Assembly: GCA_006739055.1 (NCBI GenBank)
Contig: AP019702.1
Location: 3,497,388-3,561,387 of the forward strand
Direction of reading: 5' to 3'
Source: Allostella vacuolata
GTDB taxonomy: Bacteria; Pseudomonadota; Alphaproteobacteria; ATCC43930; Allostellaceae
Length of the DNA stretch: 64,000 nt
Shown here: positions 841-15,544 of the stretch, piece by piece
Position numbering within the stretch: the stretch's first letter is position 1
Layout of the letters: each line of letters opens with the position of its first letter
Notes under the pieces: generated by a model
What the model was told of the DNA's origin: nothing
The model's input: the letters and a program-made list of their open reading frames with translations, nothing else
The model's database searches: none
Translations under genes and position numbers: made by a program

Positions 841-1527
841 TCAACCGTCGGTGCGCAACCGGAAGCGCCGGCCTTCGATCCGGTCGGCGATCGCCCGGCA
901 GGTCAGGGCCCAGGCCGCCCCGAGCAGCCAGCCGGCCACCACGTCGGTCGGCCAGTGCACGCCCAGATAGACCCGGCTGATCCCCACCAGCGCCGTCGTG
1001 CCGATGCCGACGGCGATGACGAAGCGGCGCAGCCGCGGCTGCGGCTGCACCCGGGCCAGCAGGCCGGCCAGGGTGAGATAGGCGACCGCCGACAGCATGG
1101 CGTGCCCGCTGGGAAAGCTCGCCGTGTGGATGTCGGCCAGGTGCGCCACCAGTTCCGGCCGGGGTCGGCCGAAGGCCAGCTTAAGCGAGGCGGACAGGAT
1201 CGCCCCACCGGCGAGCGAGGCCGCCAGCAGCATGACCGAGGCCCGCTCGCGCTGCAGGGCGAGGTAGCCCGCGACCACCAGCCCGACCAGGACGATCACG
1301 GCATGGCTACCGAGCGCCGTCACGTCGCGGAAGAAGATCTCCATCCACAGCGGCCCGACCGGGTCGGCGCGGTCGAGCGGGTTGCGCAGGGCGAGCAGGA
1401 TGCCTTCGTCGACGCGGTGCAGGGGCCCGTCCTCCCCGCCCCGTACCAGGACGGCCACCAGCGCGGCGGCCGCGAAGCAGATCGCGATCAGGATGCAGGT
1501 TCGGCGAGAGAGTCCCTGGAACGGCAC
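841..1527 (-). CDS. PAP2-family membrane phosphatase
   Basis: A 228-residue integral membrane phosphatase of the PAP2 (phosphatidic acid phosphatase type 2) superfamily. The three catalytic motifs are visible: KLAFGRPRP at about 112-120, PSGH at about 135-138 and SRVYLGVHWPTDV near 180-192, interleaved with five to six hydrophobic helices. Family members dephosphorylate lipid phosphates or undecaprenyl pyrophosphate at the outer face of the inner membrane; the substrate here is not readable. I chose GTG at 1527 because the longer frame to 1644 would run into the ribosome binding site of the divergent kinase and adds an atypical Arg-rich stretch. The start is the weakest part of the call. Divergent pairing with a diacylglycerol-kinase-type lipid kinase suggests lipid phosphate turnover, which is inference. 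Confidence 0.8.
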   Translation of the reverse strand: MPFQGLSRRTCILIAICFAAAALVAVLVRGGEDGPLHRVDEGILLALRNPLDRADPVGPLWMEIFFRDVTALGSHAVIVLVGLVVAGYLALQRERASVMLLAASLAGGAILSASLKLAFGRPRPELVAHLADIHTASFPSGHAMLSAVAYLTLAGLLARVQPQPRLRRFVIAVGIGTTALVGISRVYLGVHWPTDVVAGWLLGAAWALTCRAIADRIEGRRFRLRTDG

Positions 1528-1646
1528 GATGGCAGCCCTGCCCGTCGGTTGGTGGTGGAACCAGGATGCCACACCCGCGATTGTAGCGCGTGGCCCGGCC
1601 CCCAGAAGCCGGGCGCGAACGCATCCCCGCCGCTGGAGTTCCACCG

Positions 1647-2591
1647 ATGACCGAGCCCTCGCCGATGCGGCGCACGGCCCTGCTGATCGTAAACGGCCGG
1701 GCCCGCAACGGCACGGCCGCGCTCGAGGGGCCGATCGCCTTGCTGCGCGATGCCGGCATCGAGATCGTCGAGTGCCCCTGCGGCGACGGCGATAGTGCCG
1801 GCGACCATATCCGCACCCGGGCCGGCAGCGGCTCCGGCATCACCGAGGTGATCGTCGGCGGCGGCGACGGCACCATGAACGCGGCCGCCCCGGGCCTGGT
1901 CGCCACCGGCCTGCCGCTCGGCATCCTGCCGCTCGGCACCGCCAACGACCTGGCGCGATCGCTCGACATCCCGGCCGACATCGAGGCCGCCGCCCGCATC
2001 ATCGCCGACGGCCGGGTGCGGTCGATCGACCTCGGCGACGTCAACGGCCATCTCTACTTCAACGTCGCCAGCATCGGCTTCAGCGCGGTGCTGGCGCGCG
2101 AGCTGTCGGCGGAATCGAAGAAGCGCTGGGGCGTCCTGGGCTACGCCATCACCGCCTTCCGCATCCTGCGCCGCATGCGTCCCTTCACCGCCAACATCAC
2201 CCACGACAACGGCCGGATCCGGACGAAGACGATCCAGGTCTCGGTCGGCAACGGGCGGCACTATGGCGGCGGGATGACGGTCGACGCCGAGGCCCAGCCG
2301 GACGACGGGATCCTCGACGTCTACAGCCTGGAGATCGACCATTGGTGGCGGTTGATCGCCATCGCGCCCTCGCTGCGCCGCGGCACCCACGGCGCCTGGA
2401 ACGACGTGCGCACGCTGCGCACCACCGCCTGCACCCTGACGACGCGGCGGCCGATGCGGGTCAACGCGGACGGCGAGATCGTCACCATGACGCCCGCCCG
2501 CTTCCAGGTTCACCCCGCAGCCATCCGCGTCTTCGCGCCGGATCCCGGACCGGCGGCGGATCAGCCGGCCGGCGGCTCCAGCGCCGCGTAG
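1647..2591 (+). CDS. Diacylglycerol/lipid kinase family protein (YegS/BmrU type)
   Basis: A 314-residue protein of the DAGK catalytic family, which phosphorylates lipid alcohols with ATP on the cytoplasmic side of the membrane. The N-terminal nucleotide-binding lobe has the signature VIVGGGDGTMN near residues 68-78 and LPLGTANDLARSL near 97-109; the C-terminal beta-sandwich lobe (about 140-300) contains the usual VGNGRHYGGG segment near 205-214. ATG at 1647 is preferred over an in-frame start at 1590 because GGAG sits at 1636-1639. It is divergent from the PAP2 gene. Its 3' end overlaps the convergent FkbM gene by 31 bp, an unusual tail-to-tail arrangement. The natural lipid substrate cannot be told from the sequence. 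Confidence 0.85.
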   Translation: MTEPSPMRRTALLIVNGRARNGTAALEGPIALLRDAGIEIVECPCGDGDSAGDHIRTRAGSGSGITEVIVGGGDGTMNAAAPGLVATGLPLGILPLGTANDLARSLDIPADIEAAARIIADGRVRSIDLGDVNGHLYFNVASIGFSAVLARELSAESKKRWGVLGYAITAFRILRRMRPFTANITHDNGRIRTKTIQVSVGNGRHYGGGMTVDAEAQPDDGILDVYSLEIDHWWRLIAIAPSLRRGTHGAWNDVRTLRTTACTLTTRRPMRVNADGEIVTMTPARFQVHPAAIRVFAPDPGPAADQPAGGSSAA

Positions 2592-3328
2592 ACATCGCCG
2601 GAGTTGGCCGACTGCGGCAGCGCGGCGATCCATGCGGCCATCGCCGGCCCGTCCCGCCAGCCGTCGGCCGCGAGCTGCTGGGTCTCGCCGAGCGCCGCGG
2701 AGAAGCGATAGGGGCCGAGCGCCGCCACCCGCTCGATGGCCGCATAGGCGACGTCCCGCTGGATGGTCGTGAACTCGAACGACAGGGCGGCGACCGGCTG
2801 CGACAGGCCCGCCAGCGCATCGGCCTCGAACCCCTCGACATCGATCTTGATGAAGGCCGGCCTGCCATGGCGGGCGATCAGCGCATCCAGGGTGGCGAGC
2901 GGCACCTCGACCGCGCGGTCCCAGCTCTGCCCCTCCCAGCCCGCCGCGCCGCCGGCGGCGCGGATGAAGGCGTCGGAGGCGGTGGACACGGTCGGGTTGG
3001 CGGAATTGACCCGCAGCGTCACCCGGCCGGGGGCCGCCCCGACCGCGACCGGCTCCAGCGCCACCTGCGGATCGCGGCCGTAGAGGAGGCGCAGCACCCT
3101 TACCAGGGCGGGCTGCGGCTCCACCGCCACCACCCGGCAGCCGAGGCGGCGGAACGAGGCGATGCGGTCGCCGACATGGCTGCCGACATCGAACACCAGG
3201 TCGCCCGGGCCGGCGAAACGGGCGTGCAGCCGGTCCATCGCCCGGCGCCGGTCGCGCCCCCGGTAATAGATGACGAGCGATCGGCCGATGCCCCGCGCCG
3301 ACCGCAGAAGGTGGTGCAGGCCAGTCAT
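2561..3328 (-). CDS. FkbM-family methyltransferase
   Basis: A 255-residue SAM-dependent methyltransferase of the FkbM family, which usually methylates sugar or polyketide hydroxyls. The SAM-binding motif VFDVGSHVGD lies at residues 45-54, the acidic loop VVAVEPQP near 75-82, and the family signature FIKIDVEGFEADAL near 168-181. Last gene of the operon 9250-2561: its ATG overlaps the stop of the glycosyltransferase before it (ATGA at 3325-3328), which fixes the start and implies translational coupling. In this context it probably O-methylates a sugar or the aglycone of the product assembled by the operon; that role is inferred. The 3' end runs 31 bp into the convergent lipid kinase gene. Confidence 0.85.
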   Translation of the reverse strand: MTGLHHLLRSARGIGRSLVIYYRGRDRRRAMDRLHARFAGPGDLVFDVGSHVGDRIASFRRLGCRVVAVEPQPALVRVLRLLYGRDPQVALEPVAVGAAPGRVTLRVNSANPTVSTASDAFIRAAGGAAGWEGQSWDRAVEVPLATLDALIARHGRPAFIKIDVEGFEADALAGLSQPVAALSFEFTTIQRDVAYAAIERVAALGPYRFSAALGETQQLAADGWRDGPAMAAWIAALPQSANSGDVYAALEPPAG

Positions 3329-5130
3329 CCGCCGACCGGGCCCTCGACCGTCGGACGGGTCCGGCGGTCCGCGGTTGCGAGCGACAGGGCCGGCAGCCCC
3401 GCCTGCAGCAGCTCCTCGGGCGGGGCCGTTTCCTCCGGCAGGCGGCCCAGGCCCACGCGGGTGGCCGCCCGCCCGAGCCACGGCAGCGACGTGACGATGG
3501 CGAACGGTGCTGCCAGCAGCAGCCCGGCCAGGCCGAGCTGGCCATAGGCCCAGGCCTCCCAGGAGCCGGCCAGGAAGGCCGCGGTTCCGGCCACGCCCAG
3601 CAGCGACTGCAGCCACAGGGCCCGGAAAGCCACCCGCCAGGGCACCGAATGGTCGTCGCGCATCTGTCCCGTCCAGCCGGCGCGCCGGCTGAAGGGCAGG
3701 CCCAGCAGGAAGACGGTGTGGGCGAGCGTGGTGATGGGGAAGAGCAGGAGCGAGAAGACGAGCTCCAGCACGAACCCGGCCAGGAACCGCGCGGCGCCGC
3801 CGAAGCGGCGGCGCTCCGCCGGGGTCGCCAGCACGTCGATCGCGGTCGCGATCTTGGGCGCGAAGACCAGGAGGACGGTGAGCCCGAGGACGAGCGGGCC
3901 CAGCACCGGGTCGAACAGGGGACGGCCGCCGTCCCCGGTCGCCGCCCGCCATGCGACCAGGCCGAACAGGGCGGTCCAGGCCGGCGCGCCGAAGAACATC
4001 AGCATCGCCAGCAGCAGGTGGAAGCGGCTGCCCGGCAGCAGGCCCGGCATGCCGACCAGGCGCGCATACTGCATGTTGCCGAGACACCAGCGCAGGTCGC
4101 GGCGCACGAACTCCACCAGGGTCGGCGGGTTCGCCTCCCAGCTGCCCCCTTCCTCCGGCAGCACGCGCACCTCGAACCCGGCGCGCCGCATGAGCGCCGC
4201 CTCCACCTGGTCGTGGCTCAGCACCTGGCCGCCGAAGGGCGGCCCGCCCGGCAGCGGCGGGATGTGGCAGTGGCGCGTGAAGGGATCGACCCGCAGGATC
4301 GCGTTGTGGCCCCAGTAGGGCCCGCAATCGGCCTGCCAGGCCGACGAGCCGAGCGTGTAGGAGCGCATGCCGAGACGCATGCCGAACTGGAACAGCCGGG
4401 CGAACAGGCTGGTGCTGGGCATGCCCGTGACCAGGGTCTGGACGATGCCGAAGCGCGGGTGCGCCTCCATGATCCGCACCAGCCGCAGGATCGCCGCCGG
4501 TGCCATGACGCTGTCGGCGTCGAGCGTGACCATGAAGTCGTACTCGCCGCCCCAGCGCAGGCAGAAGTCGCGGATGTTGCCGGCCTTGAAGCCCTCGTTG
4601 GAGGTGCGGCGGCGATAGGTGACGGGGCAGCGATGCTCCAGGATGGCGGCCTCCGCCTCCTCCGCCCGCACGATCTCCGGCTGGTCGGTATCGCTCAGGA
4701 CGAAGGCGTGGAAGCGGCCGCCGTGGCCGGCCCGCGCCAGCCCGTCCATCAGCTGGCCGATCGCCCGGAACGCCCGGGCCGGGTCCTCGTTGCGGATGCA
4801 GATCAGGATCGCGGTGCGCGCGGCGATCGGCGCGTCGTCCGGCACGGAGCGGGCGAACGGCGCCACGGAGGCGACTGCGTCCGGCGTCGCCAGGCGCAAG
4901 CCCAGAAAGATGGCCGCGTTCCAGAATCCGATCACGCCCCAGGGGACCGTGAAGGCGAACAGCAGCAGGATGGCGAGGTCGAGGCCCCCGAACCCGGCCG
5001 GGGCGAGTGCCGCCGCCATCAGCGCGACCATCGCCAGCCCGGTCGCGGTGCAGACGAGCGCAAAGGCCCGTCGCCGCCGGGTCACCGCCGCTGCCGTACC
5101 CTCACCTGCCGTCCCCTCACCTGCCGTCAT
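3325..5130 (-). CDS. MdoH/OpgH-like family 2 membrane glycosyltransferase
   Basis: A 601-residue GT2 membrane glycosyltransferase related to OpgH/MdoH, the UDP-glucose-dependent enzyme that makes the backbone of osmoregulated periplasmic glucans. Two helices at about 22-78 precede the catalytic domain with LSDTD at 145-149, TLDADS at 202-207, a downstream LSHDQVEAALM segment and RRDLRWCLGN (the family's QxxRW-type acceptor motif); three or four helices follow from about 370. It is much shorter than E. coli OpgH, lacking the long termini. The partner mdoG/opgG is absent; instead it sits in an operon of pteridine-fold and tailoring enzymes, so its real product may not be a periplasmic glucan. 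The N-terminus contains a duplicated TAGEG, reflecting a short direct repeat at 5098-5128. The start overlaps the upstream methyltransferase by 14 bp. Confidence 0.85.
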   Translation of the reverse strand: MTAGEGTAGEGTAAAVTRRRRAFALVCTATGLAMVALMAAALAPAGFGGLDLAILLLFAFTVPWGVIGFWNAAIFLGLRLATPDAVASVAPFARSVPDDAPIAARTAILICIRNEDPARAFRAIGQLMDGLARAGHGGRFHAFVLSDTDQPEIVRAEEAEAAILEHRCPVTYRRRTSNEGFKAGNIRDFCLRWGGEYDFMVTLDADSVMAPAAILRLVRIMEAHPRFGIVQTLVTGMPSTSLFARLFQFGMRLGMRSYTLGSSAWQADCGPYWGHNAILRVDPFTRHCHIPPLPGGPPFGGQVLSHDQVEAALMRRAGFEVRVLPEEGGSWEANPPTLVEFVRRDLRWCLGNMQYARLVGMPGLLPGSRFHLLLAMLMFFGAPAWTALFGLVAWRAATGDGGRPLFDPVLGPLVLGLTVLLVFAPKIATAIDVLATPAERRRFGGAARFLAGFVLELVFSLLLFPITTLAHTVFLLGLPFSRRAGWTGQMRDDHSVPWRVAFRALWLQSLLGVAGTAAFLAGSWEAWAYGQLGLAGLLLAAPFAIVTSLPWLGRAATRVGLGRLPEETAPPEELLQAGLPALSLATADRRTRPTVEGPVGG

Positions 5131-5998
5131 GGCCCGTTCCCTTGCCGTCGATCATCGCCCCCGCCGCCTGCGAACGGCCCGGGGCGGCCGCCCATTCCAT
5201 GGGCGGCAGGACCAGCAGGTCCTGGTGCCCGACCACCAGCGACAATTGCCCGTCGGCCAGCTGCCGGCGGCGACGGTCGGCCCAGGCGGCGATGGCCGGG
5301 CGGTCGGCGGGCGACTGCTCCGCCGCGGCCGCGGCCGCCCCCTCCAGCATCGCGGCCAGCATCGCGGACTCCGCGGGCGGGACCGTCCAGTCGCTGGCGG
5401 CGGCGAGGACCCGGGCGCCGCGGCGGCGGAATGCCGCCATGGTCCAGGCCGGCGCGGCCGGACCCAGCGCCGGCCCGTGGCCGAGCCCCTTCGGGCGCCG
5501 CTGATGGCTGTGGAACAGGCGCCCGACCAGCGCATCCGCCGGATCGCCCGGGGTCCAGCGCACCCGGCCGTCGACCACCAGCGGGGCGTAGAACGGCAAG
5601 CGCCGCCGCACCAGAAGGGCCGCCAGCCGGTCGATCCAGCCGGCGGTGGCCAGGTCGATCAGGGCGAACGCGGTGACGCCGTCGCACCCTGGGCTGAGGA
5701 CGTGGCTCCAGTCGGCGGCGAGGTTGCGGCATTGGCCGCGGGCGCGTGCCAGCGGCGGGTCGCGTTGCTGCAGCGCGCGCTGCAGCAGGGCCGGATCGCC
5801 CTCGACGAAGGTCCAGCGGGCGCGGCCGCCCAGCAGCGGCCCCAGCGCCCGGCGTCCGGCGCCGGTGCCCGCCCCCAGGTCGACCAGCCGCGGCCGGTCC
5901 GGCAGCCCGCTCGCGAACCGGCACGCCAGCCCGGGCGAACGGGCGGCATCGTCGAACGGCGCCCGCAGCGCCAGCCAGTCGGCCGAGAAGCCGCTCAA
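5117..5998 (-). CDS. Class I SAM-dependent methyltransferase, unassigned substrate
   Basis: A 293-residue Rossmann-fold methyltransferase. Motif I reads LVDLGAGTG at residues 38-46, with an acidic motif II, TFVEGDPALL, about 24 residues further on. No family-specific signature was recognised. A TTG start at 5998 overlaps the stop of the preceding glycosyltransferase (TTGA) and has GGGG about ten bases upstream; no ATG or GTG is available nearby in frame. Position between two glycosyltransferase genes, overlapping both, makes it a tailoring enzyme of the same product. The C-terminal third has a segment of alanines near 215-230 (AAAAAA) that may be a linker or low-complexity helix. Confidence 0.75.
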   Translation of the reverse strand: MSGFSADWLALRAPFDDAARSPGLACRFASGLPDRPRLVDLGAGTGAGRRALGPLLGGRARWTFVEGDPALLQRALQQRDPPLARARGQCRNLAADWSHVLSPGCDGVTAFALIDLATAGWIDRLAALLVRRRLPFYAPLVVDGRVRWTPGDPADALVGRLFHSHQRRPKGLGHGPALGPAAPAWTMAAFRRRGARVLAAASDWTVPPAESAMLAAMLEGAAAAAAEQSPADRPAIAAWADRRRRQLADGQLSLVVGHQDLLVLPPMEWAAAPGRSQAAGAMIDGKGTGHDGR

Positions 5999-7035
5999 GG
6001 GGCGAATGCCCCGACGGCATCGGCGAACTGCCGGGCGGCCACGTCCCAGTCCGGCAGCGCCGCGCCATGGCCGGCGGCCGCCCGCGTCAGGGCGCAGCGC
6101 GCCGCTGGGTCGCCGACGATCCGCCGCAGGGCCGCCGCCAGTGCCGCCACGTCACCGGGCGGCACCAGCAGCCCGGCATCGGCCGGCACCGTCTCCGGCA
6201 CCGCCCCGCCGGCGACGGCGACGATCGGCAGGCCGGCCCGGAGCGCCTCGCTCAGCGCCATGCCGTAGCCCTCGTAATGGGCCGGATGCACGAAGACGTC
6301 GGCGGCGCCATAGGCGGCGGCAAGCGCGGCATCCCCCACCTCCCCCGCCAGTTCCACCCGGCCGGCGAGGCCGGCATCGACGAGTTGCCGGCGCAGGTCG
6401 GCGACCAGCGCGGGATCGCGGTCGAGCGCACCGATACAGGTCATGCGCCACGGCTCGCCCGCCAGCGGCGCCAGCGCGGCGAAGAGCTCACGATGGCCCT
6501 TGCGCGGCACGAAGGCGGCGACGGACAGCAGGCGCACGGGCCCCGGACGGGCATCGGGGGCGCGCGGCGGCACCGGGTCGACGCCCGGCGGGACGGCCCG
6601 CAGGCGATCCGCCGGCACGCCGTAGCCGTCCCGCAGCGCGCGGGCGGTGAACGGGCTGGTGACGATGATGCCGTCGACGCGGGCCAGGTCCGCCCGCTCG
6701 GCCCGGCGCAGCCGGGCGGCATCGGCCGGGGACAGGCCCGTCTCCTCGGCCAGCGGGTGGTGCACCAGCGCGATGATGCGGCAGCCGGGCGGCCGGGCGG
6801 CCAGGTCGAAGGCCGGAAGCGCCAGACCGTCGACCAGCAGCGGCGACCCGCAGCGGCCGAGGATGCCGGCCGCCGCCGCCCTGGCCGCGTCGTCGGCGAA
6901 GGGATAGGTGCCCGCCATCTCGTGCACCGCCACCTGCCAGCCGAACCGGCGCAGGCCCAGGACGATGCGGCGGTCGTAGATGGTGCCGCCGGTCCGCCGG
7001 TCGAGGCGGCCGGGCAGCGCCAGGTCCAGGCGCAT
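5995..7035 (-). CDS. Glycosyltransferase family 4 (GT-B fold)
   Basis: A 346-residue retaining glycosyltransferase of GT4 type. The C-terminal nucleotide-sugar domain is clear: LLSVAAFVPRKGH near residue 170-182, then a segment of GAADVFVHPAHYEGYGMALSE type (about 240-265) with the EGYG...E motif that contacts the sugar nucleotide, and a closing GLLVPPGD. The N-terminal half carries a putative acceptor-binding region with LVHHPLAEETG near 110-120. ATG at 7035 is preferred because it forms TGATG with the stop of the PTPS-like gene; an in-frame GTG immediately upstream (7038) is the alternative. Immediate coupling to the PTPS-like gene suggests that the pteridine-type product is glycosylated, by analogy with biopterin glucosyltransferases of cyanobacteria; this is inference. 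Confidence 0.85.
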   Translation of the reverse strand: MRLDLALPGRLDRRTGGTIYDRRIVLGLRRFGWQVAVHEMAGTYPFADDAARAAAAGILGRCGSPLLVDGLALPAFDLAARPPGCRIIALVHHPLAEETGLSPADAARLRRAERADLARVDGIIVTSPFTARALRDGYGVPADRLRAVPPGVDPVPPRAPDARPGPVRLLSVAAFVPRKGHRELFAALAPLAGEPWRMTCIGALDRDPALVADLRRQLVDAGLAGRVELAGEVGDAALAAAYGAADVFVHPAHYEGYGMALSEALRAGLPIVAVAGGAVPETVPADAGLLVPPGDVAALAAALRRIVGDPAARCALTRAAAGHGAALPDWDVAARQFADAVGAFAP

Positions 7036-7448
7036 CACGGAGCGGCCGGGATCGGTCCTTCGAAGCTGGCCCAGGCGCGCGGCGATTCGCGCAGGATCAC
7101 CTTGAGCGAGGCGAGTCGGCCGGCCGTGTCGGGGCCGAGCTCGCCGGCCGCGGCCCGCGCGGCCAGCCGGCGGTGGATCTCCGCCGACAGGAACTCGGTG
7201 GTGGTGTTGGTGCCCGCGAAGTCGGCGACGGCGTCGAGGTTGCGATAGTCGAAGGCGGCCAGCACTTCGCGCAGGGCCGTCATCGCCCGGCCGATGTCGC
7301 AGACGACGCCGTTGGCGTCGAGGTCGGCCCGGCGGAACTCCGCCTCCACGGCGTAGGTGGCGCCGTGCAGCGCCTGGGCCGGACCGAAGAGTTCGCCCTT
7401 GAAGCTGTGGGCGATCATGAAATGGTCGCAGACGGTGACGGCATACAT
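7035..7448 (-). CDS. PTPS/QueD-fold (6-pyruvoyl-tetrahydropterin synthase-like) protein with degenerate active site
   Basis: A 137-residue T-fold protein of the 6-pyruvoyl-tetrahydropterin synthase / 6-carboxytetrahydropterin synthase family, full length for the family. Canonical members act on dihydroneopterin triphosphate using three zinc-binding His residues and a Cys/Asp/His catalytic set. Here the first zinc His is present (IAHS, H14) and the second (LHGA, H28), but the third position of HxH is Ala30; no Cys stands just before the HxH, and the Asp-His pair reads Asp67-Tyr68. Glu85 in TTTEF, equivalent to the Glu that anchors the pterin ring, is kept. It may bind a pterin but use different chemistry. 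ATG at 7448 has GAAGG upstream. It is the third gene of the operon 9250-2561. Confidence 0.75.
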   Translation of the reverse strand: MYAVTVCDHFMIAHSFKGELFGPAQALHGATYAVEAEFRRADLDANGVVCDIGRAMTALREVLAAFDYRNLDAVADFAGTNTTTEFLSAEIHRRLAARAAAGELGPDTAGRLASLKVILRESPRAWASFEGPIPAAP

Positions 7449-7479
7449 GCGGGCTTGCCTTCGGATCCGGGAAACGGGG

Positions 7480-8490
7480 TCAGGGATAGCGCACGACGTG
7501 GCAGAGCGTTCCGTCCGGCGGGCCGGCGAGGCGGGCCATGGTCCGGGGCAGGTCGGCGAAATCGCTCTCGCCGGTCAGCAGAAAGTCATAGGCGGGGTCC
7601 TGCAGCAGGTCGAGGGCGAGCGCCAGGCGGCGGCGATAGGACCAGCGCCCGCGCTGCTCCGGCGCCACCCGCCCGACCTGGGACGCGCGCAGGGTCAGGC
7701 GCCTGGCGTGGAAGGCCCCGCCCAGCGGCAGGGCCACCGGGCTCGACCCGAACCAGCTGAGGACGGTGACCACCGCCTCGTCGCCGGCCAGCGCCAGCGC
7801 CGTCACCAGCCCGTCCGGCACGCCCGAGACCTCGAAGACCCCGTCGCAGTCGGCGGGAGCGGCATCGGGAAGCGAGAAGCCGACCCCCAGGGTGGCAGCC
7901 AGCGCCGCCTTGGCCGGGTCGATGTCGACCAGCGTCACCGCCGCGCCCGGCACCGCCGCGGCGAGGCGGGCGATGGCGGCCCCGACCACGCCCGCCCCGA
8001 CCACGGCGATGCGCTGCCCCGGCAGCACCGGGGAATCCCACAGGGCGTTGACCGCGGTCTCCAGGTTGGCGGCCAGCACCGCCCGCCGGGCCGGCAGCCC
8101 GTCCGGCAGCGGCAGCACCGAATCCGCCGGGACGACGAAGCGGTCCTGGTGGGGATGGAGGCAGAAGACCATGCGGCCCTGCAGCCCGGGCGGCCCCGCC
8201 TCGACCTCGCCGACCGCGGCATAGCCGTACTTGACCGGGGCGGGAAAGGCGCCCTCCTGGAACGGGCAGCGCATGCGCGCCCATTCGCTCTCGGGAACCC
8301 GGCCGCGAAACACCAGCGTCTCGGTACCCCGGGATATTCCCGACCAGCGGCAGCGCACCGCGACCTCGCCCTCGACCGGCTCCGGCAGGGGCTGGTCGCG
8401 GATTTCGCCGCGCCCCGGTCCCGTCGTCCAGAACGCGCGGGCGGTCGCCGGCGGCAGGCCGCGGGGCGGGTCAGGCGCGGGGGCGGACAT
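7480..8490 (-). CDS. Medium-chain dehydrogenase, BchC-like, lacking the catalytic zinc ligands
   Basis: A 336-residue MDR-superfamily oxidoreductase with a GroES-like N-terminal domain and a Rossmann NAD(P) domain ([18 protein letters not shown] near 160-177). In place of the usual CGTD catalytic-zinc loop it has SGISRGTE at residues 50-57, and [10 protein letters not shown] replaces the GHE zinc signature. The same SGIS-GTE loop is found in BchC-type bacteriochlorophyllide dehydrogenases, so this looks like a zinc-independent or unusual dehydrogenase acting on an alcohol/ketone next to a ring system. ATG at 8490 overlaps the end of the RibD-like gene by 20 bp; a start at 8511 is possible. 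In the operon it may set the oxidation state of a side chain. Bacteriochlorophyll genes are not present here. Confidence 0.8.
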
Positions 8491-9250
8491 CGCAGTCGAA
8501 CAGCACATCATCCCCCATACGGAAGATGCGCGTCGGTGGACGCAGCGCCTCGGAAAGATTCACCAGCGGCGGCAGGGCCAGGGCCGGCCGGCCGGAGCCC
8601 AGGATCATCGGCGCGACCGCGATCTGCAACCGGTCGAGGCAGCCCTCGGTCAGGAAGCGCGAGACGGTGACGCCGCCGCCCTCGACGAAGATGCGCCGGC
8701 AGCCGCGCCGGCCCAGGACATCGATCACCGCGCGATAGTCGATCGTGTCGCCGCGGCGCGGCACGCCGATCACCGGCGCATCGCCGAGCATCGCCCGGTC
8801 GACCCGGTCCTCGGCGCACAGGACGACGGTCTCGGTCTCGCCGTCATGGAACAGGCGGTAGCGGTCGTCGAGCCGGCGCTCGGTATCGATGACCACCCGG
8901 ACCGGGTGCCGGCCCGGCACCCGCCGGACGGTCAGGCGCGGGTCGTCGTGGCGGACCGTGCCGGCGCCGACCACCACCGCACAGGCGAGCGCGCGCATGC
9001 GGTGCAGGTGGTCGAGGTTGGCCTGGCAGGTGATGTAGGTCGATTCGCCGGCATCGGTGGCGATGCGGCCGTCCAGGCTCTGGCCGAGATGGGCGAAGAC
9101 GGTCGGGCGCCCCTCCTCCAGGTCGAGGAACGGCCCATAGAGATCGAACAGCTCCGCGGAGGCGGGGTCGTCGCGAAAAGCCTCCGACGCCCAGCGCCGC
9201 TGCCCGGTCACATGGGCGCGCAGGGCGTCCCATGCGCGGGAGCCGTCCAC
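8471..9250 (-). CDS. Stand-alone RibD C-terminal-type (pyrimidine/pteridine) reductase
   Basis: A 259-residue protein built around the RibD_C / dihydrofolate-reductase-like reductase fold. Signatures: [12 protein letters not shown] at 53-64, [17 protein letters not shown] at 93-109, and [14 protein letters not shown] near 205-218. RibD reductases reduce the ribosyl side chain of a GTP-derived aminopyrimidine with NADPH. The deaminase half of RibD is missing and no other riboflavin gene is nearby, so it is unlikely to serve riboflavin synthesis. First gene of the operon. The start is uncertain: GTG at 9250 is given; TTG at 9277 is in frame. An AT-rich patch at 9337-9350 between this gene and phnE is the only promoter-like sequence I see. 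Confidence 0.75.
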
Positions 9251-9390
9251 AGTCTCGGCCGGGTCAGGAGGCGGCAAGGAGGGTTCACGGCTCCGCTGGC
9301 ACCGGGACCGGGAGCGGCCCTCGGAAAGGCATATGCTAGCAAAATAGGCCGCGGCCCGGCAGATGGAAGCCCTCGCGTGCCGCCAAACGC

Positions 9391-10290
9391 TCAGACCGGC
9401 GCCACGCGGCTGCCGACGATCCGCGTCCGCAGCTGGGTCGAAAGGACGTCGATCAGCGCCACCGTGGCCAGGATGATCAGGATCAGGAACGAGACATGCT
9501 GCCATTCCAGCGTGCGGATCTGCTCGGCCAGATGCAGCCCGATCCCGCCCGCGCCGACGATGCCGATGATCGTCGCCGACCGGGTGTTCGATTCGAAATA
9601 GTACAGGACCTGGCTCAGCATCACCGGCAGGACCTGGGGCAGGATCCCGAAACGGATCTGGTGCAACCGGCCGCCGCCCGACGCGATGACTCCTTCGCCC
9701 GGCCGGCGGTCGGCGGCCTCGATCGCCTCGGAGAACAGCTTGCCGAACGTGCCCATGTCCGAGGACATGATGGCCAGCACGCCGGCGAAAGGCCCGAGCC
9801 CGACGACGTTGATCCAGATCAGCGCCCAGATCAGCGTGTCGACCCCGCGCACCGTGTCGAGCCCGCGGCGCGCCAGGAAATGGACGACCCGCTGCGCCAC
9901 CACGTTCTTGGCCGCGACGAAGCCGATCGGCACCGCCAGCAGGGCCGCCACCAGGGTGCCGAGAAAGGCGATGGCCACTGTCTCGGCCAGCGCCTGGAGG
10001 TAGATCTGGAGCTTGGCGACCGTGCCGAAGTCGGGCGGCACCATCAGCACGACGAAGGTGCCGAGCTGGCCCACGCCGCGCAGCATGCGCTCGGGCGAGA
10101 AGCCGACCCACCACAGGCCGACGAACATCAGCAGCACCGGGGCGGCGGCCATGGCGAACATGGCCGCCCGGCGCGCGGGCGCCGCCTCGAAGACGTGCGG
10201 GTGGCGGCCGCGGAGTACGTCCATGCGGTCGGCCGCCTCGCGGCGGAGGGCGACGCTGCCGGCCGATGCCGGCTGCGGGGTGCGGCTCAT
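9391..10290 (-). CDS. phnE: Phosphonate ABC transporter permease (second PhnE)
   Basis: A 299-residue inner-membrane permease of the BPD_transp_1 type found in phosphonate/phosphite/phosphate-analogue importers. About six transmembrane helices are visible, beginning at residue ~45, and the EAA loop for ATPase contact reads IRFGILPQVLPVMLSQ, followed by the PhnE-typical VGAGGIGL. ATG at 10290 overlaps the stop of the first permease (ATGA), so the two are translationally coupled and probably form the heterodimeric channel. Transported substrate cannot be told from the permease. It is the last gene of the phnCDEE unit; 140 bp separate it from the following RibD-like gene. Confidence 0.9.
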   Translation of the reverse strand: MSRTPQPASAGSVALRREAADRMDVLRGRHPHVFEAAPARRAAMFAMAAAPVLLMFVGLWWVGFSPERMLRGVGQLGTFVVLMVPPDFGTVAKLQIYLQALAETVAIAFLGTLVAALLAVPIGFVAAKNVVAQRVVHFLARRGLDTVRGVDTLIWALIWINVVGLGPFAGVLAIMSSDMGTFGKLFSEAIEAADRRPGEGVIASGGGRLHQIRFGILPQVLPVMLSQVLYYFESNTRSATIIGIVGAGGIGLHLAEQIRTLEWQHVSFLILIILATVALIDVLSTQLRTRIVGSRVAPV

Positions 10291-11183
10291 CGCGATCGCT
10301 CCAGTCCGATCAGGCGGTGGCGCAGACGCTCGGTCCCGAGGTCGATCAGGATCACGGTGGCGACGATCAGCAGCAGGATGGCCGAGACGTCGGCATAGTA
10401 GAATTTGCGGATCGCCTCGATCAGGTCCTGGCCGATGCCGCCCGCGCCGACGAAACCCATGACGGAAGCGCCGCGGACGTTGACCTCGAACCGGAGCAGC
10501 GCGTAGCTGGCGAAATTCGGCAGGACCTGGGGCACGACGGCGAAGCGCATCGCCGCGATCCAGTTGGCGCCGCCGGCCGTCGCCCCCTCGACCGGCCCCA
10601 TGTCGGCATTCTCGACCACCTCGGCGAAGAGCTTGCCCAGCGCGCCTGTGGTGTGGATGGCGATCGCCATGACGCCCGGCAGCGGGCCCAGCCCGAAGGC
10701 GATCACGAAGACCAGGGCGAACACCAGCTCCGGCACGGTGCGGCAGAATTCGAGGTAGCGCTTGGCGAGGAAGCGGGCGACCGGCCAGCGCCCCACATTG
10801 CGGGCCGCCAGGAAGCACAGGCCGAACGCGCCGACGAAGCCCAGCGCCGTGCCGACATAGGCGACCAGCAGCGTCTCGGCCAGCAGCCGCAGCCACTTGA
10901 CGATGCCCCAGTACCATTCGCCGACATCGAGCAGGACCGAACGGCCGGCCAGGTCGCCCGCGTCGAACACGAACAGGCGGCCGACATAGACCGGCAGCCG
11001 ATCGAAATTCGCCGCCAGCCGGGCCAGGTCGACCTCGGCCACCAGGGCGGAAACCAGGATCGCCAGGACCAGGATGACCCCGCCCAGGATGGTCTGCCGC
11101 CGGCGGGCGCTCACCGCCGCGTCATAGGCCAGGCGCAGCGGCGCCAGCGTGCGGTCGGGCAGGCGTTGGGTGGTCTGGTGCAT
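10287..11183 (-). CDS. phnE: Phosphonate ABC transporter permease (first PhnE)
   Basis: A 298-residue permease with a single N-terminal helix at about 31-50, a periplasmic segment (about 55-100) and a five-helix core. The ATPase-coupling loop reads MRFAVVPQVLPNFASY and the family mark VGAGGIGQDL follows. It resembles its downstream neighbour, suggesting an ancestral duplication with heterodimer formation. ATG at 11183 has AGGA close upstream. Between it and phnD lies a GC-rich hairpin (11215-11247) that may lower expression of the permeases relative to the binding protein. Confidence 0.9.
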   Translation of the reverse strand: MHQTTQRLPDRTLAPLRLAYDAAVSARRRQTILGGVILVLAILVSALVAEVDLARLAANFDRLPVYVGRLFVFDAGDLAGRSVLLDVGEWYWGIVKWLRLLAETLLVAYVGTALGFVGAFGLCFLAARNVGRWPVARFLAKRYLEFCRTVPELVFALVFVIAFGLGPLPGVMAIAIHTTGALGKLFAEVVENADMGPVEGATAGGANWIAAMRFAVVPQVLPNFASYALLRFEVNVRGASVMGFVGAGGIGQDLIEAIRKFYYADVSAILLLIVATVILIDLGTERLRHRLIGLERSR

Positions 11184-11214
11184 GGGGATCCTGTGCCGGG
11201 ACCGGGCGGCAAGA

Positions 11215-11247
11215 GGGCCGCGACCGCCGTCGGGCGGGCCGCGGCCC
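11215..11247 (-). terminator. Intercistronic hairpin between phnD and phnE
   Basis: GGGCCGCG at 11215-11222 is complementary to CGCGGCCC at 11240-11247, giving an 8-bp GC stem with a 17-nt loop in the 82-bp gap between phnD and the first phnE. There is no U-tract, so it is more likely an RNA-stabilising or attenuating hairpin than a strong terminator. Confidence 0.4.
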
Positions 11248-11265
11248 CTTATGCCGCGAGTGCCG

Positions 11266-12180
11266 CTAGCTGGCGCGGCGCTTGCGCAGGTTGTCGACGA
11301 ACTTGTTCAGCTCGACGATCGGCTCGTAGTCCTTGTGGGTGGTCGGCTTCCAGATCTGCTGCTGGCCGTCCGTCAGCTTCTTGAACGCCTCCGGGTCCTT
11401 CTTCTCGACCGAGAAGAAGGCGTCGCGGATCGCCGCCTTCAGGTCGGCCGGCATGTCGGAGAGGTAGGCGACCGGCGAATTCACGATCTGGTCGGACTTG
11501 AAGATGATGCGGAAGTCCGAATACTTGGCCATGGACTTGCGGTCCATGCGCATCAGGTTCGATTCCTTCTCGTCGTTCCACCAGTTGGCGGCGACGTCGA
11601 CGGTGCCCTGCTGCAGGGCGATGATCGCGTTCTCATGGCTGCCGGTATAGACGACCCGGCCGAAGAACCGGTCCGGATCGATCTTCATCTTGTCGAGCGC
11701 GAAGCGCGGCACGTTGTTGCCCGAGGTCGAGTTGGGGTCGACCAGGCCGAGGTTCTTGCCCTTCAGATCCTCGATCTTCTGATAGGGGCTGTCCTTCTTC
11801 ACATAGAAGACCGAGTAGTAGCCGGTCGAGCCGTCGGCGTTCACCTGCATGGCGAACGGCTCCACCTTGGCGCCGGTCATGTAGGCGCGGGCATAGGAGG
11901 CCGGCCCGTACTGGGCGATGTGGATGTTGCCGGCCTTCTGGCCCTCGATCACCGCCGCATAGTCGTTGGCGATGCGCAGCGTGACCTTGGTGCCGAGCTC
12001 GCGCGCCAGATAGTCGGTGAACTTGGCGTAGCGGCCGGTCGTGCCGGACGCGTTCTCGTCGGGAACGGAGGCCAGCACCAGCTCAGGGTACTTGGCTTTC
12101 CAGCCCTGGGCCTGGGCGGCGGTGGCCGTGGCGGCGATGGCGACGGCCGCGAGGCCGGTCAGGACAGTGCGCCTCAACAT
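11266..12180 (-). CDS. phnD: Phosphonate/phosphite-type periplasmic substrate-binding protein
   Basis: A 304-residue periplasmic binding protein of the PhnD family. The N-terminus is a Sec signal peptide (LRRTVLTGLAAVAIAA...) with cleavage expected after AQA near residue 25. Family features include PDENASGTTGRYAKFTDYL near 37-55 and STSGNNVPRFAL near 150-161, the phosphonate-binding Ser/Thr loop. ATG at 12180 is chosen over a longer frame because AGGAGA lies seven bases upstream. It captures an oxyanion such as a phosphonate, phosphite or phosphate ester; which one is unknown, since no C-P lyase, phosphonatase or PtxD gene is in the window. Confidence 0.88.
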   Translation of the reverse strand: MLRRTVLTGLAAVAIAATATAAQAQGWKAKYPELVLASVPDENASGTTGRYAKFTDYLARELGTKVTLRIANDYAAVIEGQKAGNIHIAQYGPASYARAYMTGAKVEPFAMQVNADGSTGYYSVFYVKKDSPYQKIEDLKGKNLGLVDPNSTSGNNVPRFALDKMKIDPDRFFGRVVYTGSHENAIIALQQGTVDVAANWWNDEKESNLMRMDRKSMAKYSDFRIIFKSDQIVNSPVAYLSDMPADLKAAIRDAFFSVEKKDPEAFKKLTDGQQQIWKPTTHKDYEPIVELNKFVDNLRKRRAS

Positions 12181-12214
12181 GAAGATTCTCCTGGTGGGGG
12201 ATCGATAGGCGGGT

Positions 12215-13024
12215 TCAGGCGGTGGCGGGCACCGCACCGCCGAGGCCGGGCCGCTCGCGGCCGGCCTCGGGGCCGTCCATGACGTCGCCCGCCTCCAGCC
12301 CGTAGAGCTCGCGGGCCACGTCCTCGGTCAGGGCCGAGGGCACGTCGTCGAAGACGATCTGGCCGGCGGCCATGCCGATCAGCCGGTCGCAGTAGCCGCG
12401 GGCGAGGTCGAGGGAATGCAGGTTCACCATCACGGTGATGCCGTAATGGCGGTTGATGCGCTGGATCGCATCCATGACGATCCGGGTGTTGCGCGGGTCG
12501 AGCGAGGCGACCGGCTCGTCGGCGAGCAGGATCCGCGGCTCCTGCACCAGCGCGCGGGCGATGGCGACCCGCTGCTGCTGCCCGCCCGACAGGCTGTCGG
12601 CGCGCTGGGCGGCCAGCTGGCCGATGTCGAACTGCTCCAGCGCCGACAGGGCGATGGCCTTGTCCTCGGCCGGCCACAACCGCAGCAGGCTGCGATGCAT
12701 CGGGATATGGTTGAGCCGGCCGATCAGCACGTTGGTCAGCACGTCGAGGCGGCCGACCAGGTTGAACTGCTGGAACACCATGGCGCAGGTCTGCCGCCAG
12801 TCGCGCAAGGCCGTCCCGCGCAGGACCGAAACTTCGTGGCCGTCATGGAGGATGCGGCCGGCCGACGGATCGACCAAGCGGTTGATCATGCGCAGGAGGG
12901 TCGACTTGCCGGCGCCGGACCGGCCGATCACGCCGACGAACTGGCCGTCCGGCACCTGGATGTCCGCCCCGGCCACCGCCCAGCGATCGCCGAAGCGCTT
13001 TCCCACCCCTTGCAGATCGAGCAT
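12215..13024 (-). CDS. phnC: Phosphonate import ATP-binding protein
   Basis: A 269-residue ABC ATPase. Walker [10 protein letters not shown] is near residues 34-42, Q-loop [12 protein letters not shown] near 85-96, signature [15 protein letters not shown] near 145-160, Walker B ILLADEP, and H-loop HSLDLA. The segment [17 protein letters not shown] is typical of PhnC. ATG at 13024 gives a normal family length; upstream GTG and TTG codons are in frame. It is the first gene of phnCDEE, lying 34 bp upstream of phnD, and powers import through the two permeases. It follows the hybrid kinase gene in the same direction after 114 bp. Confidence 0.9.
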
Positions 13025-13138
13025 GCTGCACCGCACCAATTCTGTTCCGCGGCAAGCTGCCAGGATGCGGTGACAGGTTGATGAATACGCCGTGACAGTC
13101 GGGCGACCGCCCGGGCGAGCAGGCAGCCGCGCGCCGCT

Positions 13139-15544
13139 TCAGGCGAGCGCCGCGCGCACCTTCTGCGCCAGCTCGGCGTCGCTGTAGGGTTTGGCGACGA
13201 TGCGCTCCTCGGCGATGTCGGCGAGCGCGCCCAGGTCGGCGAAGCCGGTGATGAACATGATCGCCAGCTCCGGCCGGCGCAGCTGGGCCTCGCGCGCCAC
13301 CTCCGCCCCGTTCATGCCGGGCATCGCATAGTCGAGCAGCAGCAGGTCGAGCGGGCGGCCGTCCGACAGCATCTCCAGGGCGGCACCGCCGCTGCCGGCC
13401 TCGAGCACCTGGTAGCCGAGTTCGCGCAGGCGCGCCCCGGTGACCTCGCGGACGTCGGCATCGTCGTCGACGACCAGGATCGTGCGTCCCGCGCCGGTGC
13501 CGTCGGCCCGCGCATCGGGCGGGCGGGCGGCAGCGTGCACGGCATCGCCATCGGCCCTCGGCAGATAGACGCAGACCGTGGTGCCTTCGCCCTCGCGGGT
13601 GTCGATGCGCACGCCGCCGCCCGACTGCTTGGCGAAGCCGTAGACCTGGGCCAGGCCCAGTCCCGACCCCTCGCCCACCTTCTTCGTCGTGAAGAAGGGC
13701 TCGAACGCCTTGGCCAGCACCGCGTCCGACATCCCGGTGCCGGTATCGGTAACCGACAGGACGACATACTCGCCGGCCGCCGGCTCCTCCGGACGGCGAC
13801 CCGTGCCGGTCAGGACGATGTTGGCGGTCTCGATGGTCAGGCGGCCGCCCACCTGCATGGCATCGCGGGCGTTGATGGCGAGGTTGAGGATGATCAGCTC
13901 GATCTGGGTCGGGTCCACCAGCGCCGGCCACAGGTCCGGGGCCAGCGCCCGGTGCAGCTGGACGCTGCCGCCGAGCGTGCTCTGCAGCAACTCGCGCATG
14001 CCCTCGACCGTCTCGTTGAGGTCGGTCGGCTTCGGCTCCAGCCGCTGCCGGCGGGAGAAGGACAGGAGCTGGTTGGTCAGCTTCGCGCCCCGCTCGGCGG
14101 CCGTGCGCATGTGACCCAGCCGGCGGTGAAGCTGCTCGCTGGCGCCGGGCCGGTCCAGGATGCGTTCGGCAAAGCCGATATTGCCGAGGATGATGGTCAG
14201 CAGGTTGTTGAAGTCGTGGGCGACGCCCGACGTCAGCTGGCCCACCGCCTCCAGCCGCTGCATCTGGCGCAACGTCGCCTCGATCCGCTCGCGCTCCTCG
14301 ATCTGGGCCAGGAGCTGGCGATTGGCGGCGGCGAGCTCGCTGGTCGCGTGCTTCTCCTCCGTCACGTCGCGGCCGACGGCGTAGATCAGGTCGTTGGCCG
14401 GTACCGCCGTCCAGGCGATCCAGCGATAGGCGCCGTCGCGGCGGCGATAGCGGTTCTCGAACCGCTCGATGCGGCCGCTTTCGCGCATCGTATCGATCAC
14501 CGACGCGGCCAGGGGCCGGTCGTCGGGATGGACCAGGTCGACGAGCCGCCCGGCCATGAGCTCCTCCTCGCGCCAGCCGAGCGTCTCCTGCCAGGCCGGG
14601 TTGAGGGCGACCGGGGCGGTGTCGAGCCGCTTCACGACCATCAGGTCACGCGACAGGCGCCAGGCCCTGTCCCGCTCGTGGGTCCGCTCCTCGACACGCG
14701 CCTCCAGCGCCTCGTTGAGGCGGCGCAGCCCGGCCTCGGTGCGCTTGCGTTCGGTCACGTCCTGGACGACGCCGATGACCCGCGTGCAGACGCCGTTCTC
14801 GAAGAAGGCCCGGCCATGGGTGGCGACCCACCGCTCGGCGCCGATCGGGCGCTCGGTGCGGTGCTCCTCGACCACCTCGCCCCGGCCGGCCGGGTCGGTC
14901 GCGGCCAGGATCGCGGAACGGAAAGTCGCCCGGTCGCCCGGATGGCAGCCGGCGACGAAATCCTCGAAGCCGATGTCGGCATCGGTCAGGATCCCGAACA
15001 GGGTCCGGCAGCGGCGGTCGCAGGCCATGCGGCCAGTCGCCGGCTCGAGGTCCCACAGGCCAAGCCGCGCAGCGTCGACGGCGAGACGCAACCCGACCTC
15101 GCTGGCACGGAGCGCCATCTCCGCCCGCCGCCGCTCGTTGCGCTCGCGCGCCTCCATCAGCGCCCGTTCGACGGCGGCCGGCAGGCGATGGAGGTTGCGC
15201 TTCATCACATAGTCGGTCGCCCCCTGCTTCAGGGCGTCGGTCGCGAACTCCTCGCCGACGATGCCCGAGACGAAGAGGAACGGCACGTCCGGCAGCCGGG
15301 TCCGCGCCAGCCCGAGCGCCTGCAGCCCGTCGAATCCGGGCAGGAGGTAGTCGGCCAGGATGATGTCGATCCCGCCGGCATCGAGCGCGGCCACGAACGC
15401 CTCGCGATCAGCGACATGGATGACCGAGAAGGATGCGTCGCCGGCATCGAGGTAGCTGCGGGCGAGCTCCGCATCGATCTGGCTGTCCTCCAGCAGGAGG
15501 ACGGTGACGGGCCTGTCGTCACCCGGCGGCAGCGTGGCCGCCAC
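13139..15544 (-). CDS. Hybrid histidine kinase: REC-PAS-PAS-HisKA-HATPase-REC
   Basis: An 801-residue soluble hybrid kinase. Domains in order: receiver at about 14-130 (phospho-Asp in LADYLLPGFDG), PAS about 150-270, PAS about 290-400 after a coiled coil, HisKA with SGVAHDFNNLL near 440-450, HATPase with INARDAMQ, DTGTGMS and GSGLGLAQVYG, and a C-terminal receiver at about 680-800 (LLLLDYAMPGMNG). No membrane segment is seen. GTG at 15544 begins one base after the stop of the response regulator gene and has GGGAG five bases upstream, so it is coupled to it. Third gene of the bacteriophytochrome operon, hence a likely member of a light-responsive phosphorelay. The output is unknown, since no DNA-binding domain occurs in the three proteins. 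Confidence 0.88.
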   Translation of the reverse strand: MAATLPPGDDRPVTVLLLEDSQIDAELARSYLDAGDASFSVIHVADREAFVAALDAGGIDIILADYLLPGFDGLQALGLARTRLPDVPFLFVSGIVGEEFATDALKQGATDYVMKRNLHRLPAAVERALMEARERNERRRAEMALRASEVGLRLAVDAARLGLWDLEPATGRMACDRRCRTLFGILTDADIGFEDFVAGCHPGDRATFRSAILAATDPAGRGEVVEEHRTERPIGAERWVATHGRAFFENGVCTRVIGVVQDVTERKRTEAGLRRLNEALEARVEERTHERDRAWRLSRDLMVVKRLDTAPVALNPAWQETLGWREEELMAGRLVDLVHPDDRPLAASVIDTMRESGRIERFENRYRRRDGAYRWIAWTAVPANDLIYAVGRDVTEEKHATSELAAANRQLLAQIEERERIEATLRQMQRLEAVGQLTSGVAHDFNNLLTIILGNIGFAERILDRPGASEQLHRRLGHMRTAAERGAKLTNQLLSFSRRQRLEPKPTDLNETVEGMRELLQSTLGGSVQLHRALAPDLWPALVDPTQIELIILNLAINARDAMQVGGRLTIETANIVLTGTGRRPEEPAAGEYVVLSVTDTGTGMSDAVLAKAFEPFFTTKKVGEGSGLGLAQVYGFAKQSGGGVRIDTREGEGTTVCVYLPRADGDAVHAAARPPDARADGTGAGRTILVVDDDADVREVTGARLRELGYQVLEAGSGGAALEMLSDGRPLDLLLLDYAMPGMNGAEVAREAQLRRPELAIMFITGFADLGALADIAEERIVAKPYSDAELAQKVRAALA

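Follow-up and report, generated by a model that had tools for sequence, protein, structure and literature searches.

What does the operon at positions 2561-9250 of this window synthesize, and from which precursor? The window, a stretch of 64,000 nucleotides of Allostella vacuolata, covers positions 3,497,388-3,561,387 of a 5.83 Mb single-contig genome and carries seven closely packed minus-strand genes, g1 to g7, in which a RibD_C-type reductase and a PTPS-fold protein stand beside glycosyltransferases and methyltransferases. A preliminary description of the window had proposed that these genes make a glycosylated, methylated pteridine- or deazapurine-like molecule. The reading that we prefer, and to which we give about an even chance on the comparisons below, is that the operon represents a widespread type of gene cluster, that of Streptomyces coelicolor SCO6650, which diverts the product of GTP cyclohydrolase II (GCH II) to a glycosylated, methylated, pterin-like molecule. 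The genes are as follows.

g1, 8471-9250, minus strand: RibD_C-type reductase with no deaminase domain found (PF01872)
g2, 7480-8511, minus strand: BchC-like medium-chain dehydrogenase (TIGR01202; medium-chain dehydrogenase/reductase fold)
g3, 7035-7448, minus strand: PTPS-fold protein of the SCO6650 subfamily (PF01242; 3D7J)
g4, 5995-7038, minus strand: family 4 glycosyltransferase, GT4 (PF00534)
g5, 5117-5998, minus strand: predicted class I S-adenosylmethionine (SAM) methyltransferase (fold of the AlphaFold model)
g6, 3325-5130, minus strand: MdoH-like membrane glycosyltransferase of family GT2, orphan clade, accessory (NCBIfam MdoH models)
g7, 2561-3328, minus strand: FkbM methyltransferase, accessory (TIGR01444)

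From g1 to g7, the junctions consist of a 41-nt overlap, a 31-bp gap and then overlaps of 4, 4, 14 and 4 nt, in agreement with the coordinates and with the layout given in the preliminary description, namely seven minus-strand genes with five of six junctions overlapping. The starts of g1, for which a GTG was taken, and of g2 are uncertain, and a start at the third in-frame Met of g2 would make the first overlap 20 nt. A scan of positions 1500-13200 returned no promoter-like and one terminator-like site, with no excess over shuffled sequences. The arrangement is more than chance, because the gene order recurs in other genomes and in other surroundings.

Within the order, 43 genomes, that of the window included, were searched for g3 at an E-value of 0.001, and matches were found in 18, of which 16 were at least 59% identical and two, at 37% identity, were QueD-type by their residues. 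Of these 16, the window's genome aside, the neighbourhoods of the remaining 15 were fetched and compared by tblastn at 1e-5. Relatives of g2, g3 and g4 are present in all 15 (in L035, g2 is cut by a contig end) and relatives of g1 in 13, while g6 and g7 occur together in three genus-mates only; outside the genus, genome G019 has g6 near the core. The complete seven-gene set was seen only in the window's genus. What had been described as a seven-gene operon is, therefore, a conserved core of five genes, g1 to g5, with g6 and g7 as accessories.

Beyond the order, genome contigs, with each species represented by a single genome, were scanned with a g3-family profile. At least 595 pattern matches were obtained, at least 584 of them relatives, and the counts for 80 loci reported here refer to the best 80 of these relatives, which are the nearest ones and not a random draw. 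By record titles and labels, the 80 loci represent four bacterial phyla, Pseudomonadota, Actinomycetota, Gemmatimonadota and Acidobacteriota. All five core genes lie within 8 kb in 51 of the 80; of the 48 loci whose sequence extends for 8 kb on either side, 37 hold the full five. Within 8 kb of the PTPS-fold gene, the dehydrogenase is found in 80 loci, GT4 in 76, the methyltransferase in 66 and RibD_C in 64, followed by a CDP-alcohol phosphotransferase (44), a flippase-like LPG_synthase_TM protein (27), GCH II (19), creatininase (19), FkbM (18), a sulfatase-like protein (18), MdoH (10) and cytochrome b561 (6). Moreover, in an even sample of 289 genomes across the Alphaproteobacteria, relatives of g2 and of g3 occur in the identical 36, at thresholds of our own setting (E 1e-20 for g3 and 1e-40 for g2, with at most seven g2 candidates scored per genome), and by their listed positions the two genes are no more than about 2 kb apart in 35 of these genomes, the pair of G077 being split over two contigs. 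The gene set, more or less complete, is also carried on plasmids of Rhizobiaceae, Rhodobacterales, Methylosinus, Thiodictyon, Streptomyces and Microbacterium, and haloarchaeal plasmids carry it with a more distant PTPS-fold protein.

Genes g1 to g5 are a real conserved unit, and the conserved gene set of the preliminary description is borne out for these five by the locus counts and by the shared distribution of g2 and g3. The unit is not a strict one: a Streptomyces anthocyanicus plasmid (L044, 9001-9426) has a lone PTPS-fold gene with the other core genes absent, two roseobacter-type plasmids and one from Haloarcula have no GT4 between the PTPS-fold gene and the methyltransferase, and a Rhodococcus dehydrogenase match sits in a different context. 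A phage origin was considered and rejected, as the PTPS-subfamily profile matched 12 viral-contig stretches by pattern, none of them a true relative. Two small alphaproteobacterial genomes of 1.4-1.6 Mb (G202 and G299) keep a diverged dehydrogenase/PTPS-fold pair.

The PTPS-fold protein, g3, matches PF01242 with 82 bits, carries the FGPAQ-x-x-HGAT motif of the SCO6650 subfamily and has SCO6650 itself (PDB 3D7J) as its closest solved structure (E 2.7e-63, with the family profile). Its residues were compared with those of PTPS 2G64 and of two QueD-type proteins of the order, across 93 sequences. Two of the three zinc-binding His residues are kept in all 93, and the third, at position 30, is Ala in 91 of them and in the window protein, where HGA aligns with HGH. 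The catalytic Cys is replaced by Ala24 (Ala in 90 of 93) and the catalytic His by Tyr68 (Tyr in 72, Phe in 13), and the position of the catalytic Asp holds Asp67 in g3, with Asp in 24 and Asn in 57 of the relatives. Glu121 is invariant across the 93 and lines up with a Glu conserved in the two QueD-type proteins, the residue that holds the pterin.

With a score of 40.4 bits against the QueD equivalog cut-off of 89.25 and with these residues, g3 is, by sequence criteria, neither a PTPS nor a QueD and belongs with SCO6650, which is reported to lack both zinc and PTPS activity. The PTPS/QueD-type pteridine or deazapurine chemistry behind the earlier proposal is not supported as it stood: no canonical step of this kind can be claimed, because g3 is without one zinc His and without the catalytic Cys and His. 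The earlier statement that no described pathway with this gene set was known agrees with a literature search that found no publication on it, coverage being thin for subscription journals, but the family of g3 is not a blank, since the SCO6650 structure has been solved. In plasmid records L038-L042, the relatives of g3 and g2 are annotated as 6-carboxytetrahydropterin synthase and zinc-binding alcohol dehydrogenase despite the loss of the defining residues.

The precursor is suggested by g1 and by the cyclohydrolases that accompany the cluster. g1 matches PF01872 RibD_C with 142.1 bits (cut-off 24.1) and stays under two NCBIfam cut-offs (ribD_Cterm, 145.1 against 150.15; archaeal reductase, 124.4 against 186.45), and no deaminase domain was found in it by Pfam and NCBIfam scans. 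Its closest solved relatives are 2AZN (E 7.6e-26) and 6P8C (E 9.5e-25), the latter named 2,5-diamino-6-ribosylamino-4(3H)-pyrimidinone 5'-phosphate reductase; reductases of this type act before deamination. No PF00925 match to GCH II is present in the window, the two of the genome being at 3.32 and 5.64 Mb, so that the absence of a GTP cyclohydrolase noted in the preliminary description is correct for GCH II. Elsewhere, GCH II and/or creatininase lie no more than 8 kb from the PTPS-fold gene in 29 of the 80 loci, both of them in 9. The linked GCH II proteins belong to Micromonosporaceae, to Zoogloea, to a group of Actinomadura, Nocardiopsis and Streptomyces, to Acidobacteriota and to a long form found mostly in Pseudomonadota; as these are several well-separated lineages, they suggest that GCH II has been recruited to the cluster repeatedly. 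In addition, one haloarchaeal plasmid version (L043, 8211-10414) has a gene annotated as GTP cyclohydrolase IIa, together with a PTPS-fold protein with HSHH in place of HGAT. A GTP-derived start, one part of the earlier proposal, is partly supported by the linked GCH II, the creatininase and the haloarchaeal GCH IIa.

In the sister family within the order, GCH II adjoins the core in 10 of 12 genomes, and the 5.64 Mb GCH II of the window genome groups with these linked proteins (86/87 and 90/94, below the starred level of support). The 3.32 Mb match, in a riboflavin locus near 3.317 Mb (L061), aligns poorly around the position of E. coli Tyr105 and, judged by that alignment, may be degenerate, which would leave the 5.64 Mb gene as the only active GCH II. 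The Tyr105 position was compared in 21 proteins, from the 20 of the 80 loci with GCH II within 9 kb and from one Streptomyces plasmid, and it holds Tyr in 15 of them, the other six having Met, His or Gln. RibD_C accompanies all 15 Tyr-type proteins and none of the five non-Tyr loci among the 80, and creatininase is in the stretch in six of six non-Tyr loci against five of 15 Tyr loci. Work on SCO6655 is said to have found that loss of this Tyr makes GCH II stop at a formylated intermediate. A tie between creatininase and Tyr loss was nevertheless discarded, for the six non-Tyr proteins form one clade and count as one event, and the five Tyr loci have creatininase too.

The remaining core proteins can be assigned to enzyme classes. 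g2 reaches 47.4 bits with the bchC model TIGR01202 (cut-off 291.25), and its AlphaFold model (predicted local distance difference test score, pLDDT, 92.6) has a medium-chain dehydrogenase fold, with 4OH1 as top match (Z 31.6, 2.6 Å, 296 residues). At the positions of the zinc-binding Cys and His, g2 has Ser60 and Leu66, as read from a weak (14-bit) stretch of its alignment with RspB. A reading of g2 as a polyol dehydrogenase was considered and not adopted; seven of the 11 top VIA-align rows carry the names of polyol, ketose or sugar-acid dehydrogenases, but ordinary alcohol dehydrogenases are among the rows just 2 Z lower. g4 matches PF00534 Glycos_transf_1 with 92 bits and has Glu256 and Glu264, which are kept in at least 97% of 87 sequences. 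The Pfam match of g5 is weak (E 0.033), and its AlphaFold model (pLDDT 92.0) identifies it by predicted fold as a class I SAM methyltransferase (3MGG, Z 19.3, 3.6 Å, 238 residues). An attempt to assign the methyltransferase substrate from the fold was abandoned, since the matches span many class I enzymes with no clear specificity.

Of the accessory genes, g6 matches Pfam Glyco_trans_2_3 with 63 bits and nine NCBIfam MdoH models, passing two (502.8 against 419 and 462.4 against 328) and staying below the cut-off of seven, and g7 is an FkbM protein by TIGR01444 (80 bits against 37.7) and Pfam Methyltransf_21/FkbM (58 bits). The earlier remark that this MdoH stands apart from MdoG is right: an mdoG-mdoH pair lies elsewhere in the genome, at 3.969-3.973 Mb, and g6 is 39% identical to its MdoH. 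In a tree of 21 MdoH proteins, 12 that are linked to the cluster and have no neighbouring MdoG are separated from nine MdoG-partnered ones with 100/100 support. This orphan clade comprises the window's genus, G019, four betaproteobacterial genomes, Lamprocystis, Methylosinus and Neorhizobium; a genome search found no MdoG match anywhere in G019 or the four betaproteobacteria, and that in Methylosinus and Neorhizobium covered the plasmid only.

The orphan MdoH and the CDP-alcohol phosphotransferase were compared in 108 stretches, made up of the 80 loci, the window, 14 stretches of the order and 13 of plasmids (left out were L031 and L035 of the order, with L055 in place of L031's genome, and plasmid stretches L044, L070 and L071; L074 and L027, both counted, are the same contig). 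The phosphotransferase is found in none of the 13 orphan-MdoH stretches and in 63 of the other 95 (Fisher p 3.5e-6, uncorrected for relatedness), and the flippase-like gene in none of 13 and 32 of 95 (p 0.009); several stretches stop at contig ends, which makes absences there weaker. A profile search for the cluster-type phosphotransferase was also negative in all ten whole genomes with an orphan MdoH; its eight positives in eight order members, pre-chosen as carriers, show only that the search works. Because both states occur within the order and again within Rhizobiaceae, the swap of modules probably happened more than once. The orphan MdoH clade and its mutual exclusion with the CDP-alcohol phosphotransferase in the loci examined are new. 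In the phosphotransferase, residues D111, D114, G115, A118, R119, G128, D132 and D136 are conserved in no fewer than 97% of 53 sequences. A canonical-clade MdoH was seen in seven other stretches (L100, L114, L118, L119, L130, L137 and L147), up to about 10 kb from the core; six of the seven have the phosphotransferase, and MdoG is adjacent in the four checked.

Taken together, these sequences support a putative dedicated pathway from the GCH II product to a glycosylated, probably methylated, membrane-handled molecule. In the preferred reading, the cluster would divert 2,5-diamino-6-ribosylamino-4(3H)-pyrimidinone 5'-phosphate away from riboflavin synthesis; g1 would reduce it with no deamination, g2 and g3 would turn the reduced product into a pterin-like core, and the GT4 g4 and methyltransferase g5 would decorate this core. 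In many lineages, the CDP-alcohol phosphotransferase, sometimes with the flippase-like protein, would then attach or move the product, whereas in the window's genus the orphan MdoH-like g6 would replace the phosphotransferase, add a sugar and probably export the product, to which FkbM g7 would add a methyl group. We infer every chemical step and the export from the gene set, and the pterin-like nature of the core from the fold of g3, its invariant Glu and the cyclohydrolases that the cluster has recruited. Of the glycosylated, methylated pteridine-like product first proposed, the GTP-derived start has gained partial support, and a canonical pterin or deazapurine step cannot be claimed for g3.

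Several observations weigh against this proposal. Zinc-type alcohol oxidation would be unavailable to g2, since its zinc ligands seem to be lost, and relatives of g5 were found in only nine of the 15 order neighbourhoods. GCH II is linked in just 19 of the 80 loci, no such linkage is seen in the window's genus (four genomes), and the linked GCH II of the order is weaker evidence, because the same enzyme may also serve riboflavin synthesis. RibD_C is absent within 8 kb in 16 of the 80 loci, and five of these 16 are actinobacterial and contain both GCH II and creatininase; a search of nine actinobacterial genomes turned up many RibD_C genes, which is indecisive for these loci. The sampling of nearest relatives also bears on the counts for the 80 loci.

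A more specific version of the chemistry is tentative and, in our estimate, rather unlikely, namely a pterin route independent of GTP cyclohydrolase I that yields an envelope pterin glycoconjugate of a new class in bacteria and haloarchaea by way of two exclusive membrane modules. RibD_C would reduce the GCH II product to its ribityl form, and the zinc-less g2 would turn the 2'-hydroxyl into a ketone by oxidation; condensation of this ketone with the 5-amino group in g3 would give a 7,8-dihydroneopterin phosphate, through the same deoxy-pentulose intermediate as in GTP cyclohydrolase I. The pterin would then be glycosylated, methylated and set in or across the membrane by the phosphotransferase, with or without the flippase, or by the orphan MdoH. 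The dihydroneopterin route is chemically plausible.

A comparably doubtful alternative leaves the second ring unclosed: the product would be a ribityl-pyrimidine head group, g3 would merely bind the pyrimidine, and the ribityl chain would be the base on which the phosphotransferase or orphan MdoH builds a phospholipid or glycan of the envelope. RibD_C makes such a chain in known pathways, g3 is without the catalytic Cys and His of PTPS, and the linked phosphotransferase keeps its residues, two of three scanned matching PgsA weakly and under the cut-off; against this, such a pathway would not need a pterin-binding fold, and no other pair of genes is as constant as g2 and g3. That g1 is a spare RibD reductase, with the other genes modifying a flavin or boosting riboflavin, seems improbable. 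Both g1 and GCH II are of riboflavin families, but g1 has no deaminase domain that could be found, no lumazine or riboflavin synthase family turned up in a scan of ten of the 18 recurrent neighbour families, and a further RibD_C match of the genome lies in a 421-aa open frame close to its second GCH II match, at 3.32 Mb.

An operon for periplasmic glucan, in which g6 makes the glucan and the rest decorate it, is equally improbable. Its attraction is that g6 passes two MdoH cut-offs and that canonical-clade MdoH occurs in other fetched loci, with MdoG beside it where checked; against it, the orphan MdoH is absent from 95 of the 108 loci, and the reading in which g6 makes osmoregulated periplasmic glucan (OPG) and nothing else lost weight, since g6 branches separately as a second copy in a genome with an mdoG-mdoH pair elsewhere. 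Least credible is a queuosine or deazapurine-type pathway through the QueD reaction, which the public annotation of g3 relatives as 6-carboxytetrahydropterin synthase would suggest and which was rejected on the sub-cut-off score and the changed zinc His, Cys and catalytic His positions.

Several known systems resemble the cluster in part. SCO6650 is of the same PTPS-fold subfamily as g3 and a neighbour of SCO6655 in Streptomyces coelicolor. SCO6655 is named as a GTP cyclohydrolase II (PMC2853524). On a Streptomyces plasmid, the cluster comes with creatininase and with a GCH II that carries Met at the Tyr105 position. The window operon differs in its RibD_C, orphan MdoH and FkbM genes and in lacking creatininase, and the Tyr-type GCH II of its genome lies outside the operon. 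The creatininase-family genes near the core (19 of 80 loci, none in the window operon) recall deformylation by archaeal ArfB and bacterial BrbF; the latter, formerly annotated creatininase, deformylates the formylamino pyrimidine from GTP cyclohydrolase (PMC9478397).

The cyanobacterial pteridine glycosides, cyanopterin and tetrahydrobiopterin glucoside, are pterins with sugars like the proposed product. Their route goes through GTP cyclohydrolase I and an active PTPS, unlike the cluster, whose g3 is without the PTPS residues and whose linked cyclohydrolase is II. According to PMC3546692, cyanopterin is a methylated, glycosylated pterin with an O-methyl sugar, and the route to cyanobacterial biopterins includes sepiapterin reductase. 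The MdoGH/OpgGH system of glucan synthesis shares the MdoH homologue, g6 being of a different clade, without a neighbouring MdoG, and itself a second copy in the genome.

The product would be a common metabolite, probably drawn from GTP, and the public annotations of g2 and g3 as zinc-binding alcohol dehydrogenase and 6-carboxytetrahydropterin synthase stand although the defining residues are missing. If the pterin reading is true, the cluster would offer a second means of making the pterin ring and a clue to the way in which pterins get into the periplasm. A 2026 review calls their passage across the membrane unknown (PMC13259868).

Directly upstream of the operon and on the same strand, the window has a PhnC/PhnD/PhnE-like ABC transporter (9391-13039). 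No PhnD match was found in the other order neighbourhoods fetched, and the transporter is retained in two genus-mates (L023 and L024).

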